Assembly: GCA_025350905.1 (NCBI GenBank)
Contig: JANXWY010000187.1
Coordinates: 1-42,705, forward strand
From: Verrucomicrobiota bacterium
GTDB lineage: Bacteria > Verrucomicrobiota > Verrucomicrobiia > Limisphaerales > JADLHS01
Length of the DNA stretch: 42,705 bases
Reading direction: 5' to 3'
The notes below the pieces were generated by a model. It was not told where the DNA came from and ran no database searches. It saw nothing but the letters and a program-made list of their open reading frames with translations. Shown in pieces: positions 3,317-11,893 of the stretch. The translations under genes and the position numbers were made by a program. The number at the start of each line of letters is the position of its first letter. Position 1 is the stretch's first letter.

Positions 3317-4330
3317 TTGCAACCGCCCGCCACCCCCCACGCCGCCGAAGAACAAACCGTCGAACAAATCAAAGCCGGCCGCACGCGCATCCAGGCCGAG
3401 TTGTCCAAGGTCATCGTGGGCCAGAAGGAGGTGATCGAGCAATTGCTCATTGCGCTCTTCGCGGGCGGCCATTGTCTCATCACCGGCGCGCCCGGCCTCG
3501 CCAAGACGCTGCTCGTGAAATCTATCGCGCAGGTGTTTCATCTCAAGTTCCAGCGGGTTCAATTCACCCCCGACCTTATGCCCGCCGATATTACCGGCAC
3601 AGAAATTTTGCAGGACACCGGGGGCGAACGGAAACTTGCCTTCGTGCCCGGCCCGGTGTTCGCCAACATGATCCTCGCCGATGAAATCAATCGCACCCCA
3701 CCGAAGACCCAGGCGGCCCTGCTCGAAGCGATGCAGGAGCATCAGGTCACGGCGGCCGGCGTGCGCCACGCGTTGCCCGAACCGTTCTTCGTCCTCGCCA
3801 CGCAAAACCCCATCGAGATGGAAGGCACGTATCCGTTGCCTGAAGCGCAGCTCGACCGCTTCATGTTCAACGTGGTGATTGATTACCTGCCGGAGGACGA
3901 CGAAGTCGAAGTCGTGAAACAAACCACCAGCGGCAAGCCCGCAGCCATCGAACCGCTCTTCACCGGCGAGGACGTGCTCCGCTTCCACGACCTCGTCCGC
4001 AAAGTGCCCATCGCGCAGGACTTGATTCGCTACGCCGTGCGGCTCGCTGCCGCTTCCCGCCCCAAGCAACCGCACGCGCCGGATTTCGTCAACGAATGGA
4101 TCAGTTGGGGCGCCGGTTTGCGCGCCGGACAATTCCTCGTGCTTGGCGCCAAAGTCCGCGCCCTGCTCCAAGGCCGCGCGCATGTGACCATTGAGGACAT
4201 TCAAACGCTCGCCTACCCAACGCTGCGCCACCGCATTCTCCTGAACTATCGCGCGGAAGCGGAAGGTGTGACGGTCGAGAGTGTGATTGGGAAACTCCTG
4301 GAAACCCTCAAGGGAGTCGCGATGAAGTAA
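3317..4330 (+). CDS. MoxR family AAA+ ATPase
   Basis: Complete 337-aa MoxR-type AAA+ ATPase. Walker A is GAPGLAKT at residues 57-64 and Walker B is M-I-L-A-D-E-I-N-R. The sensor region ATQNPIEMEGTYPLPEAQLDRF is the family signature, and the C-terminal lid domain is present. The start is TTG at 3317, supported by an AAGGAA ribosome-binding site at 3307-3312, one of the few clear ones here. MoxR ATPases work as chaperone-like remodelers with vWA-domain partners, for example in cofactor insertion or in assembling envelope complexes. The DUF58 and BatA-like vWA genes immediately downstream are the obvious partners. Length and motifs are normal for the family. The client is unknown. Confidence 0.95.
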   Translation: MQPPATPHAAEEQTVEQIKAGRTRIQAELSKVIVGQKEVIEQLLIALFAGGHCLITGAPGLAKTLLVKSIAQVFHLKFQRVQFTPDLMPADITGTEILQDTGGERKLAFVPGPVFANMILADEINRTPPKTQAALLEAMQEHQVTAAGVRHALPEPFFVLATQNPIEMEGTYPLPEAQLDRFMFNVVIDYLPEDDEVEVVKQTTSGKPAAIEPLFTGEDVLRFHDLVRKVPIAQDLIRYAVRLAAASRPKQPHAPDFVNEWISWGAGLRAGQFLVLGAKVRALLQGRAHVTIEDIQTLAYPTLRHRILLNYRAEAEGVTVESVIGKLLETLKGVAMK

Positions 4331-4354
4331 CGATTTGAATAAAATGTTTAATCG

Positions 4355-4553
4355 CTCGCCCTCACCCCGACCCTCTCCCCCAGGAGAGGGAGAATCTTTG
4401 CCCGACTTCTGGCGATGCGAACGGCCTACGATTTCACTGGGACACTGGCGTAAAGAGCGAATGCGTGGCAGATGCAACGGAGATTTCGAAACAATCAGAG
4501 CGCGCCAGACTTTCCTCCCTCTCCCCGGGGGAGAGGGTTGGGGTGAGGGCGAG
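4355..4553. repeat. Paired REP-like palindromes in inverted orientation (BIME-like)
   Basis: The gap between the MoxR and DUF58 genes (4331-4585) holds two related hairpins. One is CCCTCTCCCCCAGGAGAGGG at 4371-4390; the other is CCCTCTCC-CCGGGG-GAGAGGG at 4517-4537. They are flanked by CTCGCCCTCACCCCGA (4355-4370) and its near reverse complement TTGGGGTGAGGGCGAG (4538-4553). The two units therefore face each other across about 125 bp of unremarkable sequence, like a bacterial interspersed mosaic element or a small MITE. The hairpins could attenuate transcription or stabilise upstream mRNA inside the operon. Confidence 0.75.
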
Positions 4554-4585
4554 CGTCACACAAATTTCACTCCGCTGGCGAGACA

Positions 4586-5569
4586 ATGAGTGCCCTCGCC
4601 CCAACCGCCACCTCGTCGAACCGGCAGATCCATTCGGAATCCCGTTCCACCAAACTCATCTCCCCATCGGCCCTGATGGCGATCAAGAATCTCGAACTGC
4701 GCGCCCGTATCATCGTTCAGGGATTCTGGCGCGGCATCCATCGCAGCCCGTATCACGGCTTCTCCGTCGAATTCACCGAGTATCGCCAGTATTCGCCCGG
4801 CGACGATCCGCGTTATCTCGACTGGCGGCTCTATGCGCGCAGCGACCGTTACTACATCAAGAAGTTCGAGGACGAAACGAACCTCCGTTGTTACCTGCTC
4901 GTGGACCACAGCCGCTCGATGGATTATGGCTCGCTCGGCTATACCAAATCGCAATACGCGAGCACCCTCGCCGCCACGCTCGGCTACTTTCTCCATCACC
5001 AAGGCGACGCCGTCGGCCTACTTACCTTCGACGAACAAATCCGCGACTACCTTCCAGCGCGCAATCGCCTCGGCCACCTGCGCCGGCTCATGCTGCAACT
5101 GGAACAAGCCACGGCCGGCACCGCCACCGACCTTGGCGCCCCGCTCCAGCGCATCGTGGAAATAGTCCGCAAATGTTCACTCATGGTGCTGATCTCGGAC
5201 TTCCTTGCGCCCATTGAAACGCTGGAACGAAATCTCACGGCGCTCGTCGCCTCCGGTCACGAGGTGATGTTGCTTCAGGTGCTCGATCCGGCCGAGCTCA
5301 CGTTCGATTTCGATCGCGCCGTCCTGTTCCGGGATATCGAATCCGGCCGCGACCTGTTCATTGAACCGGCCACCGCGCGCGAGGATTACCTCCAACGCCT
5401 GAACACTCACAACGAGGCTGTCCGCGCCACTTGTCAGCGGCTCGGTACCGGGTTCCGCTCCTTTAGTACCAATCACGCGCTCGAACTGGCGATGTTCGAT
5501 TTCCTGCGCGAGCGAAAACAGCGGGGCAAAACCACCAGCCGCTTCGGGGGAGCGAGGAAAGGGCGATGA
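4586..5569 (+). CDS. DUF58 domain-containing vWA-like protein
   Basis: 327-aa DUF58 protein. The conserved block HRSPYHGFSVEF-x-EYRQYSPGDDPR-x-x-DW-x-x-YARSDR lies at about residues 52-90 and is followed by the vWA-like fold. The MIDAS-type metal site D-H-S-R-S starts at Asp107. DUF58 proteins are standard partners of MoxR ATPases. No transmembrane segment is seen, so it is probably cytoplasmic or peripheral. The start at 4586 follows a weak GCGAGA stretch; the N-terminus aligns with the usual LELRAR helix about 35 residues in, so a slightly later start (Met31) is possible. A palindrome-rich gap separates it from the BatA-like gene. Confidence 0.9.
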   Translation: MSALAPTATSSNRQIHSESRSTKLISPSALMAIKNLELRARIIVQGFWRGIHRSPYHGFSVEFTEYRQYSPGDDPRYLDWRLYARSDRYYIKKFEDETNLRCYLLVDHSRSMDYGSLGYTKSQYASTLAATLGYFLHHQGDAVGLLTFDEQIRDYLPARNRLGHLRRLMLQLEQATAGTATDLGAPLQRIVEIVRKCSLMVLISDFLAPIETLERNLTALVASGHEVMLLQVLDPAELTFDFDRAVLFRDIESGRDLFIEPATAREDYLQRLNTHNEAVRATCQRLGTGFRSFSTNHALELAMFDFLRERKQRGKTTSRFGGARKGR

Positions 5570-5597: not shown

Positions 5598-5744
5598 CAC
5601 CGGGCTTCAGCCCGGTGTCGGGCGAGGGTCAGGCCGAAGCCCTTTCAACGGCTTGGCCGATGCGCGAAATGTCATTGAAACGAGAAAACGGTTGAAACCG
5701 TTTCGTTCCATTCGCCTGCTCACCACCCGGCTGAATCCGGGTGC
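5598..5744. repeat. Cluster of three short palindromes in the DUF58-BatA gap
   Basis: Three separate perfect or near-perfect palindromes lie within 150 bp: CACCGGGCTTCAGCCCGGTG (5598-5617), AAACGGTTGAAACCGTTT (5687-5704) and CACCCGGCTGAATCCGGGTG (5725-5744). The first and third are related to each other. The sequence between them shows no plausible gene. This looks like a composite dispersed repeat unit; such units usually occur in many intergenic copies, which cannot be tested from one window. Confidence 0.75.
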
Positions 5745-5777
5745 TACGGAGAGCAGAGGCTCTTTCTGAACTAAGCC

Positions 5778-7994
5778 ATGAGTTTCCTCGCGCCATTTTT
5801 CATGTTCGGCGGTCTGGCTATCGCGCTGCCGGTGATGTTTCACCTTGTCCGCCGTTCGTCGCGCGAAAAGCTGTTGTTTAGTTCCTTGATGTTTCTCCGG
5901 CCCAACCCACCGCGACTGACCCGGCGCCATCGGCTTGAAAACATTTTTCTCCTGCTGCTCCGCTGCCTCGCCCTCTGTATTCTCTCGCTCGGCTTCGCGC
6001 GCCCGTTTTTCCAGCGGCCACTGGCGGCCGTGGCTACGAATACTACTGGCGCGCATATCGTGATCCTCGTCGACCTCAGCGCCAGCATGAAGCGCGAAGG
6101 TGTCTGGGCGGAGGCGCTGGCGAAAGTCGAAGCCGCACTGAAGAAAGCCACGGCCGCCGATCAGGTCGCGCTGCTGACGTTCGACGACCAAGTCCGCACC
6201 CTCGTCAGCTTCGAACAGTGGGCCGCGATGAACCTCTCCGACCGCGCTGCGCTCGCGGCTCAACGGCTCCGTGAAAGCCCGCCGACCTGGCATTCCACTC
6301 AGCTGGGTAACGCGCTCATCGCTGCCGCGGAAACCATCGAGGACGCCGAGAAACGCGAGCCGCAGGCTGGCCCGCGACGCATTGTGGTCATCACCGACCT
6401 GCAGGAAGGCAGCCGGGTTGATGGCTTGCAAGGCCACGAATGGCCACGCGGCCTTGAAGTCGTCGTCGATCTGGTCAAAGCGAAGCGGCCGACCAACGCT
6501 GGCCTGCAATGGGTGATGAACGTCGAAGATTCCGCGCGCCCGGCGACCGACACCGCGGTGCGCCTCCGGGTCAATAATTCCGCGGACGCCAAACGGGATC
6601 AATTCCTCATTCGTTGGGCGGGCGATGCCGGCGGCGATTCCTTGGATGCTTATGTTCCCCCCGGCCAGAGCCGCATCCTGCCGGCGCCTCGCCTCCCATT
6701 GAATGTCGTGGCCGAACAAATCACGTTGAGCGGCGATGATGATAATTTCGACAACACTGCCTACATCGTTCAACCCACCGCCGAAGAGATTAACGTGCTT
6801 TTTCTCGGGAACGACGCCGAAGGGGACCCGGGGCAATTGCTCTATTACCTAAAGCGGGCATTTCAAGACACGCGCCGGCTGGCGGTGCATCTAAATAATA
6901 TTAGCGATCTCCTCACCCGACCTTTGGCCACCCTCTCTCCATCCGATGGGGAGAGGGACAGGGTGAGGGGGCTACTCTCGGCAAGTCGCCTCGCCATCAT
7001 CGCGAGCACTTTATCCGAAGCCCGCCGGGGTGAAGTTCGCCAATACCTCACCAACGGCGGTACTGCCTTGCTCGTGCTCAACGATCCGTCGACGGTGGCC
7101 ACTCTTGCCCAGTTGACTGGCGTCCTTGGTGTCAGTGCGAGCGCGGCGACCGTTCCCAATTACGCCATGTTCGGCCAGATGGATTTCACACACCCGCTGT
7201 TCGCGCCCTTTGCGGATCCGCGCTTCGGCGACTTTACCAAGATTCGGTTCTGGAAGCACTGCAAGTTGTCCCTCGACCAATTGCCCGGCGCTCGTGTCCT
7301 TGCGAGTTACGATGACCACGACCCCGCCATCCTCGAAGTTCCGGTCGGGCGCGGGCGCATTTTTTTGTTCACCTTTTCGTGGCGACCTTCGGATAGCCAG
7401 TTGGCGCTGTCGTCGAAATTTGTGCCGCTGCTTTATTCGCTGCTCGATCAAACCGGCGGCGTGAGTGCACAACGCGCACAATTCCAAGTGGGTGACACCG
7501 TTGACCTCTCATCCGTCCGTAGCCGACGACGTGAGGAGGCGGACTCGGTCGGCACATCGGGGAATCCGCCGCCTGACGTCGGCGGCTACACGGTTCGCAA
7601 ACCCGACGGCTCGCAGGTTCAACTCGCGTCCGGCGAAACGCGCTTTACCCAAGCCGATCAGCCCGGCATCTACGAGGTGCTGGTAACCGACGATGTAAAA
7701 AGGCGGACGGCATCGCCCCTAAGGTTCGCTGTCAACCTCGACGCCGCCGAAAGCAAAACCGCGCCGATGCCGGCGGACGAGCTCGAACGCCTCGGGGTGC
7801 CGATGAAATCCGTGACGGCGCCGTCCGATTCGCTCGCGGCCAAGCCGGAGACGCTGCACCAGGCCGAGCTGGAGGCTCGACAAAAGCTGTGGCGCTGGTT
7901 GCTTGTGACGGCCCTGGCGGTATTGTTGGTGGAAACTTGGCTGGCGGGCTGGATTACCCGCCGGACCGCCGCGCCTGTCGTGGCCGCAACATGA
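5778..7994 (+). CDS. BatA-like membrane protein with vWA domain
   Basis: 738-aa inner-membrane protein. The N-terminus (MSFLAPFFMFGGLAIALPVMFH) is the BatA/aerotolerance-regulator N-terminal helix. A second hydrophobic helix (NIFLLLLRCLALCILSLGFA) precedes a periplasmic vWA domain with MIDAS D-L-S-A-S at Asp99-Ser103. A CARDB-like segment and a GATase1-like Rossmann region (about 340-480) follow, and a final helix (LWRWLLVTALAVLLVETWLA) ends the protein. Bat proteins are classic MoxR partners. Two stretches, residues about 378-398 and 582-604, are encoded by repeat palindromes inserted without breaking the frame. Its stop overlaps the start of the next gene (ATGA at 7991). The overall architecture is seen directly; the function as a MoxR-dependent envelope component is inferred. 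Confidence 0.85.
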   Translation: MSFLAPFFMFGGLAIALPVMFHLVRRSSREKLLFSSLMFLRPNPPRLTRRHRLENIFLLLLRCLALCILSLGFARPFFQRPLAAVATNTTGAHIVILVDLSASMKREGVWAEALAKVEAALKKATAADQVALLTFDDQVRTLVSFEQWAAMNLSDRAALAAQRLRESPPTWHSTQLGNALIAAAETIEDAEKREPQAGPRRIVVITDLQEGSRVDGLQGHEWPRGLEVVVDLVKAKRPTNAGLQWVMNVEDSARPATDTAVRLRVNNSADAKRDQFLIRWAGDAGGDSLDAYVPPGQSRILPAPRLPLNVVAEQITLSGDDDNFDNTAYIVQPTAEEINVLFLGNDAEGDPGQLLYYLKRAFQDTRRLAVHLNNISDLLTRPLATLSPSDGERDRVRGLLSASRLAIIASTLSEARRGEVRQYLTNGGTALLVLNDPSTVATLAQLTGVLGVSASAATVPNYAMFGQMDFTHPLFAPFADPRFGDFTKIRFWKHCKLSLDQLPGARVLASYDDHDPAILEVPVGRGRIFLFTFSWRPSDSQLALSSKFVPLLYSLLDQTGGVSAQRAQFQVGDTVDLSSVRSRRREEADSVGTSGNPPPDVGGYTVRKPDGSQVQLASGETRFTQADQPGIYEVLVTDDVKRRTASPLRFAVNLDAAESKTAPMPADELERLGVPMKSVTAPSDSLAAKPETLHQAELEARQKLWRWLLVTALAVLLVETWLAGWITRRTAAPVVAAT
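6911..6970. repeat. REP-like hairpin inserted in frame in the BatA-like gene
   Basis: Outer arms CTCACCC (6912-6918) and GGGTGAG (6961-6967) enclose an inner hairpin CCCTCTC...GAGAGGG (6931-6957). It has the same layout and core as the intergenic elements at 4371-4390 and 4517-4537. It translates as a hydrophilic LTRPLATLSPSDGERDRVRG loop inside a GATase1-like fold, so it probably sits on a surface loop. Confidence 0.75.
7521..7587. repeat. Second palindromic element inserted in frame in the BatA-like gene
   Basis: Arm 1 (7521-7543, AGCCGACGACGTGAGGAGGC...) and arm 2 (7565-7587, TCCGCCGCCTGACGTCGGCG...) are reverse complements at 20 of 23 positions, with a 21-bp spacer. It encodes an RSRRREEAD-type hydrophilic stretch. 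It is a different family from the REP-like hairpin at 6911 but is closely related to the element at 2176-2248. Confidence 0.75.
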
Positions 7995-10900
7995 TTGATC
8001 GCCTCCTCCAGCTCCACCTTGAACCCATCGCCCGGGATCACCGGCGCGGGCAGCTTTTGCGCAGCTTGTCGCGCGGCTGGCTCGCGGCTGCGGGGGTGGG
8101 CCTGTGCTTCATTATGCTCCACCGCGCTACCGGATGGATTTCGCCCTGGCTGTGGCTGTTGCTTTTGGTCGCGGCTCTGGCGTGGACGTTCGTCGCGTGG
8201 CGCCGGCACCAACAGTCGCCGCTCGATTTTCAAACCGTCGCGCAGCACATCGAGGCGGAGGATCCGAAGTTACACGCGCTGTTACTTACGGCGGTCGAGC
8301 AAAGGCCCGCTTCGCCAACGCAGGAACTGAACTATCTCCAAGACCGCGTCATTCGCGAGGCCCTCGCGATGGATCGGCGGAGTCGCTGGCGCCATCGGGC
8401 AGCCGGCCAGCTGCGTCGCGCGCAACTCGGCACCGTCGCGGTCGCCGCTCTGCTCGCCAGCGTGTTGCTCACGTTGTATCAGGCCGCACCGCCGCGGCTC
8501 GCGATTTTTACCCGGACCGGCCACGAAGTCACGGTGACGCCCGGCGATACCAGTATGGAGCAAGGCAGCAGTCTCGTGGTGTTGGCGAAATTTACCGGCA
8601 ACGTGCCGGCGGCAGCCGAGCTGGTCGTGCGGCCGGCGAACGAACTCGAGCGCCGGCTTCCGCTGACAAGGAATCTGGACGATCCCGTTTTCGGCGCGAG
8701 CCTGCCCGACGTCAAAGGCGAACTGACCTATCACATCGAATACCGCGACGAGCGGACTCGCGATTTCAAAGTCACCACGTTCGAGTTCCCGCGCCTCGAA
8801 CGCGCGGATGCCAGGGTTACGTTTCCCGAATACACCGGCTTGCCGGGGAAAACGATCGAGGACACCCGCCGGGTCAGCGCGTTGGAAGGGAGCGCGGTCG
8901 CTTGCACGTTTCAACTGAATAAACCGGTCCGTTCAGCGACGTTCGTCGAAGTCCGCCGAAGTAGCGGCGACGCCTCGTCGCCGGGTGTGGTGATGACGCC
9001 CCCGTCGCCACGAAGTGACTCACCCGAGAGCCCCAAAGCGACGCGGACTTCGCTGCCACTGCTCGTGGACACCAATCATCCGAACGTGTACACCTTCAAC
9101 TGCAAACTTGAACAGAGCGCCCGCTACGAACTCCTCCTGGTGGATGAGGCCGGCCGCACGAACAAGGTGCCACCGTTGTTTGTCTTCGATGCGCTGACCA
9201 ATCATGCGCCGGAACTCAAGTTCGCGTTTCCGAAAGGCGACCTGCGCGTTTCGGCGTTGGAGGAAATCGCGTTCCAGGCCGAGGCTTCGGATGATTTCGG
9301 CCTCCAGGCTTACGGCTTGGCCTACAATCTCGCCGGTCACGAAACGAAGTTTGTCGCGCTGGGTGCGGCCGCCGGACCCCACGAGAAGCGCGCGATCAAT
9401 CAGTTGGTGCCGCTCGAAGCGCTCGGCGCGCAGGTGGACGAGTTGTTGAGCTATTACCTCTGGGCGGACGACTTGGGGCCGGACGGCCAGCTGCGCCGCA
9501 CGACGAGCGATATGTTTTTCGCCGAAGTGCGCCCGTTCGAGGAAATCTTCCGCGAAGGCCAGCCGCCGGATCCGAACGCGCAACAATCGCAGTTGCCGGG
9601 CCAAGGTCAAAACGCCGCCGAGAAACTGGCCGAGTTGCAAAAGCAAATCATCACGGCGACCTGGAATTTGCAGCGCCGCGAGTTGGGCAAGACCCCCACC
9701 GCCGGATTTAAGGCGGACGCCCAGACGGTAAAGGATTCGCAAGCGCAAGCACTCGAACAGGTGCGCCAGCGGACGGAGCAAGCGGAAGATCCGCGCGCAA
9801 AAGCCTTGCTCCAGACGGTGCAAACGCAAATGACGCAGGCGGTCGCGCACCTCACCGGCGCGACGGATGACAATTCGCCCAAAGCTTTGCCGCCCGCCTT
9901 GGCCGCGGAGCAGTCGGCGTATCAGGCTTTGCTGCGGTTGGCGGCCCGCGAGATTCAAGTGTCCCAAGGTCAGCGCGGGCAGAGCGGGCAGAGCCGTCGC
10001 GGGCAGCGGGCGCAACGGCAGCTGGACCAACTCAACTTGCGGCCGGCGCCGAATCGCTACGAAACCGAGCGGCAGGCCGCGCCGCCCCCAAATCCGCAGT
10101 CGCGCGAAGCGGTGTCGGCCTTCAATCGTTTGCAGGAACTCGCGCAACGCCAGCAGGACGTGAACGAACGGCTCAAGGAATTGCAGGCCGCCTTGGCGGA
10201 AGCGAAGACCGCAGCGGAACGCGAGGAGCTGCGCCAGCGACTCAAGCGGTTGCAGGAAGAGCAACAGCAGACGCTCGCCGACGTGGACGAACTGCGGCAG
10301 CGCCTGGAGCGCCCGGAAAACCAATCGTCGATGAGCGAGGCGCGGCCGCAGCTCGACCAGACGCGCAAGGAAGTGCAGGGGGCGGCCGAAGCCATGGAGC
10401 GCGGCGAGGTGACGCAGGCCTTATCATCGGGTACGCGGGCCCAGCGGGATTTGCAACAGCTCCGCGATGATTTCCGCAAACAAAGCGCGAGTCAATTCGC
10501 CGACGACCTGCGGGAGCTGTGCCGTCAGGCCCGCGAACTGGCCCAAAAGCAGGAAGGCATCGGTCAGGAACTGGACGCGTTGGCGGACCCGACGCCACGC
10601 AAGACTCTCACCGATGCCGACGGCCGCAAGCAACTGGCGGCGCAACTTGACGAGCAGAAAAAACTCATGGATGAACTGGTGAAGCACGCAACCGAAGTCA
10701 CGCAAAAGGCCGAGCCCGTCGAGCCGCTGTTGTCCCGCCAGCTTTATGACACGCTGCGGAAGGCGACCCAGGATGACGCGCGGAATTTGCAGGCGACAAG
10801 TGATGAGCTGCTGACGCAAGGCCGGTTGCGCAAAGGCGTCGAACAATATTTGCGGGAAAGCCGGCGGGGAGGAAAAACGGCGGTGGAAGTGAGCGCCGAT

Positions 10901-11893
10901 CTGCTGCGGGAAGGTTTGTCGGCCGAGGCGGACAATCTCGAACAACGCGCGCGCCGCAGTATCAACGAGCTTAAGACGGGAGTGGAACGTGCGGCGGAAA
11001 GCGTTCTCGGCGACGACACGGAAGCGTTACGGATCGCGCGCAACGAACTCGACGACCTAAGTCGGCAGCTCGAGCGCGAGCTGGCAGAGGCGCAGCGTTC
11101 GGCGAACACGAATGGCCCCGGTAACCGCCGAAGTGAGTCGTCCGATCGCGTGGGCGGCGAAGAACCGCCGGCCAACGTTACCAACGGACGCGAAGGCCCG
11201 CCCCCCGGCGAAGGCCAGCAAGGTCAACGGCAGGCGCAAAATCAACCTCAACCCAAACCAGGGCCGCAAAACAATCCACCGGGACCGCCAGCGCCATCAG
11301 CTCCGCCCGGACAAGCAGGATCGCGGACCGCGGCAAATCAAGGGCTAGGTGACGGCGCGGGGCCGACCGGCAACGCTCGCGGTCCGGCCGGGCAGAACCA
11401 AGCCGGCCAGCCCAGCGGTGAGCGTCCGCCCGGCGGACAACGCGATGGTGGTGGCGGTGGCGGCGGCGGTAATTTTCTTGATCAATTCGGCGAGGAGCAG
11501 GGGGGGCGGGCTGCGGGCGGTCCCATCACCGGGACGGAATACACGCAATGGTCGGATCGTTTGCGGGATGTGGAGGCAATGTTGGACGTTCCGGAACTGC
11601 GCGCTGAGGCCGCCCGAATCCGGGACCGCGCCCGCAACGCACGCCAGGATTTGAAACGCCACGCCCAAGAGCCGCGATGGGACGTTGTCAGAATGGAAAT
11701 TGCCGGGCCATTGCTGGAGTTACGTTCGCGCATCAGTGAAGAACTCGCCCGGCGCGCCTCGAAGGAGGCGCTCGTGCCGATTGACCGCGATCCAGTGCCG
11801 ACGCGTTACTCCGAATTGGTACGGCGTTACTACGAGCAATTGGGCAAGAGTGAGTCCGGCCGGGCGACGGAGGCTGGGGGCGGGAACCCGTGA
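7991..11893 (+). CDS. DUF4175-like large coiled-coil membrane protein
   Basis: 1300-aa protein. The ATG at 7991 overlaps the BatA-like stop; the frame is open further upstream but that part lies inside the preceding gene. Two N-terminal transmembrane helices (about residues 29-46 and 52-70) are followed by a third hydrophobic segment near 150, then beta-rich extracytoplasmic domains (about 180-520). A long Gln/Glu/Arg-rich coiled-coil region spans about 530-1030. A Gly/Pro/Gln/Asn low-complexity stretch (about 1040-1170) leads to a conserved-looking C-terminus with a PVPTRYSELVRRYYEQL motif. This layout resembles DUF4175 (TIGR02302-type) proteins, which accompany MoxR/DUF58/BatA genes. A role as a long periplasmic or envelope-spanning scaffold is inference. 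Confidence 0.7.
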   Translation: MIDRLLQLHLEPIARDHRRGQLLRSLSRGWLAAAGVGLCFIMLHRATGWISPWLWLLLLVAALAWTFVAWRRHQQSPLDFQTVAQHIEAEDPKLHALLLTAVEQRPASPTQELNYLQDRVIREALAMDRRSRWRHRAAGQLRRAQLGTVAVAALLASVLLTLYQAAPPRLAIFTRTGHEVTVTPGDTSMEQGSSLVVLAKFTGNVPAAAELVVRPANELERRLPLTRNLDDPVFGASLPDVKGELTYHIEYRDERTRDFKVTTFEFPRLERADARVTFPEYTGLPGKTIEDTRRVSALEGSAVACTFQLNKPVRSATFVEVRRSSGDASSPGVVMTPPSPRSDSPESPKATRTSLPLLVDTNHPNVYTFNCKLEQSARYELLLVDEAGRTNKVPPLFVFDALTNHAPELKFAFPKGDLRVSALEEIAFQAEASDDFGLQAYGLAYNLAGHETKFVALGAAAGPHEKRAINQLVPLEALGAQVDELLSYYLWADDLGPDGQLRRTTSDMFFAEVRPFEEIFREGQPPDPNAQQSQLPGQGQNAAEKLAELQKQIITATWNLQRRELGKTPTAGFKADAQTVKDSQAQALEQVRQRTEQAEDPRAKALLQTVQTQMTQAVAHLTGATDDNSPKALPPALAAEQSAYQALLRLAAREIQVSQGQRGQSGQSRRGQRAQRQLDQLNLRPAPNRYETERQAAPPPNPQSREAVSAFNRLQELAQRQQDVNERLKELQAALAEAKTAAEREELRQRLKRLQEEQQQTLADVDELRQRLERPENQSSMSEARPQLDQTRKEVQGAAEAMERGEVTQALSSGTRAQRDLQQLRDDFRKQSASQFADDLRELCRQARELAQKQEGIGQELDALADPTPRKTLTDADGRKQLAAQLDEQKKLMDELVKHATEVTQKAEPVEPLLSRQLYDTLRKATQDDARNLQATSDELLTQGRLRKGVEQYLRESRRGGKTAVEVSADLLREGLSAEADNLEQRARRSINELKTGVERAAESVLGDDTEALRIARNELDDLSRQLERELAEAQRSANTNGPGNRRSESSDRVGGEEPPANVTNGREGPPPGEGQQGQRQAQNQPQPKPGPQNNPPGPPAPSAPPGQAGSRTAANQGLGDGAGPTGNARGPAGQNQAGQPSGERPPGGQRDGGGGGGGGNFLDQFGEEQGGRAAGGPITGTEYTQWSDRLRDVEAMLDVPELRAEAARIRDRARNARQDLKRHAQEPRWDVVRMEIAGPLLELRSRISEELARRASKEALVPIDRDPVPTRYSELVRRYYEQLGKSESGRATEAGGGNP

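Follow-up and report, generated by a model that had tools for sequence, protein, structure and literature searches.

Palindromic repeats of 62 bp in frame within protein genes of Verrucomicrobiota

A palindrome of 62 bp lies in frame within a BatA/VWA-type gene of a Verrucomicrobiota bacterium (assembly GCA_025350905.1), at positions 6909–6970 of contig JANXWY010000187.1; the window, i.e., the whole stretch of DNA analysed here, comprises positions 1 to 42,705 of this contig. The palindrome is very probably one copy of a family of mobile, non-autonomous hairpin repeats (family A) which survive in permissive loops of proteins, and the linker of the BatA/VWA protein would tolerate it because it keeps the frame open and contributes a loop. 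Palindromes inside genes are generally regarded as an oddity of Rickettsia; here about half of the sampled copies of one family were found in frame, across an order of Verrucomicrobia. Such copies represent a natural insertion-scanning experiment, which maps those loops of housekeeping enzymes that tolerate 15–30 foreign residues. The mode of movement and any role of the added peptide become directly testable questions. In the following, genomes are designated by G numbers (G000 is the source genome, a draft of 6.27 Mb in 489 contigs; all others are relatives, whose genomes are drafts as well) and loci by L numbers.

The palindromes of the BatA/VWA gene

The host gene (5778–7994, forward strand) was recognised from its open reading frame, domain matches and orthologues in relatives; it encodes a protein of 738 amino acids with a BatA N-terminal domain (PF07584) and a VWA domain, and a close match is a protein of a Verrucomicrobiia MAG. 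According to domain matches, it is preceded by genes for a MoxR-type AAA ATPase (3317–4330) and a DUF58 protein (4586–5569), and it is followed by a gene for 1300 amino acids (7991–11893), which was compared with its counterpart in L068; all three are on the forward strand. Domain make-up and neighbourhood are those of other BatA/VWA genes beside MoxR and DUF58 genes, but unlike these, the gene at 5778–7994 holds two inserted palindromes. A structure model of the host protein, predicted from two sequences, was poor (mean pLDDT 46.2) and was therefore not taken as evidence.

The sequence at 6909–6970 (forward strand) is CTCCTCACCC..GGGTGAGGGG and is translated without a stop as LLTRPLATLSPSDGERDRVRG in the open reading frame 5778–7994. 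The initial annotation had correctly described a palindrome read through in this gene, which was given as a 60-bp element at 6911–6970. A long hairpin was predicted for this stretch (−34.9 kcal/mol, z −2.81), with 2 of 200 shuffles being equally good. An alignment of 64 of the 74 eligible family-A copies showed that the unit begins 2 bp before position 6911, so that its length is 62 bp and no multiple of three. The ends of the unit in this alignment are CCCC..GGGG; neither a GTAG nor a CGTC tag was found at the ends, and the flanks contain no GTAG. Searching with the right-arm pattern GGGGAGAGGGNNGGGGTGAGGG and up to 3 mismatches yielded three matches in the window (4359–4380 on the reverse strand, 4528–4549 and 6948–6969 on the forward strand), whereas 100 dinucleotide shuffles gave 0.00 on average; genome-wide, 257 matches (125 + 132) were obtained versus 73 (35 + 38) for the reversed control pattern. 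The 60-bp element matched other places of the source genome with identities of up to 90%.

Two intergenic hairpins between the MoxR-type and DUF58 genes had been annotated as having the same arms. The right arm indeed recurs at both places, but arm pattern and pair analysis showed that the two together form a single inverted pair (4353–4555) of short-armed family-A relatives, designated A2; its arms at 4353–4384 and 4524–4555 have 32 nt each, are 94% complementary and are spaced by 139 nt. A relative of this pair sits in frame in loop 1 of PurL of G000 (L058), G008 and G010, where the loop comprises 62–64 residues.

Orthologue matches were found in 47 of 57 relatives' genomes, and of the 29 further loci obtained, 27 were aligned after exclusion of the distant loci L045 and L046. 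The residues of the 6909–6970 element were absent from all 27 aligned orthologues; distant taxa sharing these residues, which would speak for native sequence, were thus not among them. The linker between the flanking conserved stretches has 32 residues here versus 18 in L019 and L021 (counted by hand on the alignment). The earlier estimate of about 20 added residues therefore holds for what the element encodes, and extra residues with respect to orthologues are present, but the net gain is about 14 residues rather than a clean insertion of 20. The present sequence is not accounted for by insertion unless native residues were lost as well, since in BatA, and likewise in TrpE (see below), the loop gained less than the length of the element. 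As judged from these alignments, the palindrome is an insertion into a variable linker of a BatA/VWA-type protein.

The orthologue of G010 (L018, which is the same as L067; 70% identical) contains a different palindrome in the same linker, namely one of the GTAG type (family B), for which at least 79 blastn matches were obtained in G010, both strands counted, the best 40 of 190 candidates having been scored. Family B is also represented further downstream in the host gene itself. Fold, repeats and alignment identified at 7518–7590 (forward strand) a palindrome unrelated to family A and absent from the initial annotation, an inverted pair of GTAG-tagged REPs (GTAGCCGACGACGTGAGGAGGCGGA..CCGCCGCCTGACGTCGGCGGCTAC), which is in frame and reads RSRRREEAD..NPPPDVGGY. 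The stretch 7514–7593 folds with a z of −5.51. With GTAGCC..GGCTAC at 7518–7590 and repetition in the source genome and in G010, family B has the properties of a GTAG-tagged REP dimer. G010 has a family-B palindrome at this second site, too, and most of the extra residues are gaps in 25–26 of the 27 orthologues. In L068, a locus of a Verrucomicrobia MAG, the gene after BatA carries a family-B palindrome in frame, and the source genome has other residues in that loop. Just upstream of the host gene, an intergenic GTAG-like repeat is present at 5693–5755; elsewhere in the genome, inverted copies of it flank a Y1 transposase (RAYT-type) gene (L072) on both sides, which is the classic RAYT arrangement.

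Copies in other genes and genomes

Matches to family A were present in 40 of 57 relatives. The copies were sampled from regions round the best listed matches in the source genome and 14 relatives, with 16 to 40 candidates scored per genome, and thus do not represent a census. Copies were regarded as coding if both flanks were coding, according to a codon model for which the same DNA had served as training set, and if one open frame ran through the element; the strict count excluded rows with less than 80% identity or less than 46 bp, which removed 3 of the 37 copies of G000 in a looser count. Counting in coding and noncoding positions, as proposed in the initial annotation, gave the following: among 121 full-length copies from 15 genomes, 57 were in frame in coding sequence (in 14 of the 15 genomes), 62 were not called coding and 2 were near contig ends. 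In the source genome 23 of 34 copies were coding by the strict rule and 26 of 37 by the looser one. The strict rule misses true cases, e.g., MutS (L059), which was rejected although an NCBIfam MutS match spans the element. Coding status by the looser rule was lost under the strict rule for L180 (G036), where the copy lies at the centre of an inverted-repeat element between genes, and both frame-2 cases of the looser rule (L048, L184) were lost as well. The 64 uncalled copies had a coding flank on one side (22), on neither side (37) or were otherwise arranged (5). Frame-breaking copies were 0 of 121 by the strict rule; a separate loose rule suggested one possible case among the 64 uncalled copies (L165 of G007). 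The same test with family B yielded 6 of 33 coding copies and one possible frame change, so that family A appears more genic than family B in this sample. A length divisible by three, which had been proposed earlier, was dismissed as a cause of survival in frame: 62 bp was the commonest length both in coding (32 of 57) and in uncalled copies (46 of 62). An acyl-ACP ligase-like gene of G000 (L050) contained two family-A-like inserts, one of them degenerate (77%).

Twenty host proteins were scanned, and eight were above the NCBIfam curated cut-off, namely UvrA (two), LigA, PurL, RsmA, MutS, RlmN and an ABC-F ATPase; the match of a TrpE host (L052) was below the cut-off, and its gene is cut by a contig end. 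Genes of DNA repair and replication are among the hosts (UvrA twice, MutS and LigA; L065, L096, L059 and L064), echoing the list for Opitutus terrae in the main text of PMC3733652. Comparison with solved structures showed that the stretch with the element was absent or much shorter in the best chain for four of four hosts (residues in query versus chain: MutS, 33 versus 1; LigA, 39 versus 0; RsmA, 36 versus 12; UvrA, 31 versus 2), and in each of these proteins both flanks of the element align to one chain. The residues missing in the alignments suggest that the insertion sites are surface loops. A family-A copy with closely similar flanks occurs in UvrA of G000 (L065) and at L157 of G007; some inserts may therefore be old.

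The content of a given loop differed between species. In TrpE (12 genes), family A was present in G000, G011 and G003, filler D, judged a palindromic element by its inverted GTAG..CTAC ends only, in G009 and G010, filler E in G006, a filler without family assignment in G004, and a short form of 11 residues in G001, G002, G005, G007 and G008. The loop of PurL (10 genes) contained family A in G000 and G003, filler F, assigned likewise only by its inverted GTAG..CTAC ends, in G008, G004 and G010, with a variant in G009, filler E in G006, a B-like palindrome in a second gene of G008, and sequence without family assignment in G011 and G001. For LigA (12 genes), family A was found in G000 and filler E in G009, while G001 and G004 had a GTAG..CTAC filler, G011 had sequence without family assignment, and G002, G003, G005 and G007 had a short form. 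LigA of G006, G010 and G008 (L199, L200 and L204) have about 260 extra residues at the zinc-finger loop, which holds family A in G000; a Pfam scan of these three proteins matched no family in the extra part. Repetition within the genome was seen for filler E (G006 and G009) and for family B (G010). Together with BatA, unrelated palindrome families share a loop in all four host loops examined, which were chosen and not random.

Movement, reading frame and constraint

The distribution of family A is best understood if hairpins insert widely and most genic insertions are purged, but insertions persist where they lengthen a permissive surface loop by a peptide without stops. The same few loops would then be filled repeatedly by unrelated families. 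Copies identical to the 62-bp consensus were present in G007, G009 and G036. Some intergenic copies in G007 and G036 (L163, L181, L182, L188 and similar ones) are embedded as the core in a larger element, which has inverted repeats and ends of the TTAGA..TCTAA type; genic copies consist of the 62-bp unit alone, and their flanks are not conserved. The 32 coding copies of 62 bp showed no target duplications of 3–7 bp; one of 2 bp was seen in 5 of 32 versus 2.0 expected. Lack of target duplication is a trait of single-strand transposition by IS200/IS605 elements or RAYTs. The result for family A fits transposition of the IS200/IS605 or RAYT type, being by itself no proof of the mechanism. The source genome has 16 matches to Y1 transposases (Y1_Tnp); since such genes are present and target duplications of at least 3 bp are lacking, family A might perhaps move while folded as a single strand, with a Y1 (RAYT-like) transposase as the mover, a step which we propose with less confidence. 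Near the 16 Y1_Tnp loci, one clear match to family A was found (L070), which is degenerate (79% over 47 bp), and a second one of 23 bp (L074; E 0.007). This is about chance, since some 257 sites per 6.27 Mb predict one or two matches in that much DNA; a RAYT flanked by family A, as is typical of REPINs, was not evident at these loci.

A further, rather doubtful suggestion is that certain loops are standing docking sites, where palindromes of unrelated families succeed each other in the course of time and one frame is favoured. If so, the content of the loop would turn over at the speed of a population of mobile elements, and the rest of the protein would remain conserved.

The reading frame of the coding copies is strongly biased. 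In 50 of 57, the first base of the element, in the direction of the gene, is also the first of a codon (27 and 23 copies in the two orientations); six of the remaining copies are in the phase which requires a change of length to escape a stop, and one uses the second open phase. Tested against equal use of both open phases, this corresponds to p = 5e-14, a value calculated for copies which are related and not independent. Among unshifted coding copies the ratio is 50 versus 1, and by the looser rule 35 versus 2. Plain tolerance of any open frame does not explain the use of one frame. A preferred reading frame is also known for Rickettsia palindromic elements (RPE). Hydropathy of the peptide provides no explanation, since the means of the two open frames are nearly equal (about −0.96 and −0.94 on the Kyte-Doolittle scale, calculated by hand). 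The base before the element is A or T in 33 of the 50 frame-0 coding copies, versus 28% A+T at codon position 3; this preference cannot predict the frame, since codon position 2 is still richer in A+T (53%).

The bias to one frame in 50 of 57 copies, in both orientations and although another frame is open, could be taken to indicate that the peptide of about 20 residues (SPSDGER-type) was recruited for a task in the host proteins, e.g., as a binding linker or a phase-specific motif, and the initial annotation had called the element domesticated. This appears improbable. Coding copies (n = 20) had 25 synonymous and 40 non-synonymous changes, and non-coding family-A copies read in the same frame (n = 26) had 34 and 39, respectively; the synonymous fractions (25/65 and 34/73) compare with an expected 0.29–0.33, and the 20 coding copies showed no synonymous excess over the 26 non-coding ones. 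The peptide thus gives no sign of conservation, and the term "domesticated" is not supported. In addition, the hosts are unrelated, and other species have entirely different peptides, or none, in the same loops. The encoded peptide is most likely neutral filler.

Structure of the nucleic acid, not of the peptide, looks to be under constraint. Paired positions accounted for 95.5% of cells, and changes on both sides of a pair numbered 14 versus 2.7 in shuffles; these touch only 4 of 26 pairs, mostly one pair of a side hairpin, a number of pairs which 19 of 500 shuffles reached, and related copies inflate the count. The strong predicted hairpins and the both-side changes would be compatible with a role of the hairpin in host mRNA or DNA, such as tuning of translation, RNA decay or supercoiling, as was proposed for extragenic REPs. 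We consider this role quite improbable: pairing is expected of any mobile hairpin which needs to fold for its movement, the positions are in the middle of unrelated genes, and orthologues are without the element or have a different palindrome. Native or chance GC-rich coding sequence resembling intergenic repeats, to which the high G+C content of the gene and nothing more points, is extremely improbable in view of the 0.00 matches expected in the window, the matches of up to 90% elsewhere in the genome and the absence from orthologues. Equally remote is a mis-joining of repeat ends into genes during assembly; the source genome is a draft of many contigs, as are those of relatives, but the 57 coding copies of the sample, which come from 14 of 15 genomes, have coding sequence in frame on both sides, without clear frame breaks, the two flanks in MutS, LigA, RsmA and UvrA each align to a single chain, and the copies in UvrA of G000 (L065) and at L157 of G007 have closely similar flanks.

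Comparison with known palindromic elements

Taken as mobile hairpins tolerated in loops, the members of family A can be compared with three systems. REPINs (Bertels and Rainey 2011, PMC3116915) are similar as hairpin-forming inverted pairs, whose movement is thought to be due to a Y1 (RAYT) transposase; they have pair-preserving changes, a trait which family A may share. They were analysed, in the main text of that work, in extragenic space, whereas 57 of 121 sampled copies of family A are in coding sequence, an observation at variance with the extragenic location of a REPIN, and no linked RAYT was established.

A resemblance to the in-gene elements of Rickettsia had been noted in the initial annotation, and it held: family A is a palindromic repeat, spread genome-wide and inserted in frame in unrelated protein genes, as the Rickettsia elements are according to the descriptions in the texts of PMC10969869 and PMC3733652, on which the likeness is based. 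The review PMC10969869 reports the latter as in frame within genes and gives their length as about 150 bp; family A has 62 bp, a net length which is no multiple of three, and occurs in Verrucomicrobia which are free-living or uncultured.

A nearer precedent than the Rickettsia elements, to judge from the main text of Di Nocera et al. (2013; PMC3733652), is provided by the intragenic GTAG REPs of Opitutus terrae. REPs inside genes were described there, mostly of the GTAG kind in O. terrae, with uvrA and DNA ligase among the hosts; for two Xanthomonas species, different REPs were reported at about one site of recB. Small palindromes in frame in genes of a verrucomicrobium are common to both cases (the dimers of O. 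terrae encode 20–30 residues), and uvrA and DNA ligase are also hosts of family A in the source genome. Differences are the untagged ends CCCC..GGGG of family A, although family B in the same gene has the GTAG tag, and the occurrence of several unrelated families per loop across related species, in four of four host loops. Our literature searches brought up no description of family A, or of loops shared in this way, for this clade. The kind of element is thus already known from the accounts of the Rickettsia RPEs and of the intragenic GTAG REPs of O. terrae (PMC3733652); as far as our literature searches show, an untagged family, a single favoured frame and the sharing of loops by unrelated families are new.
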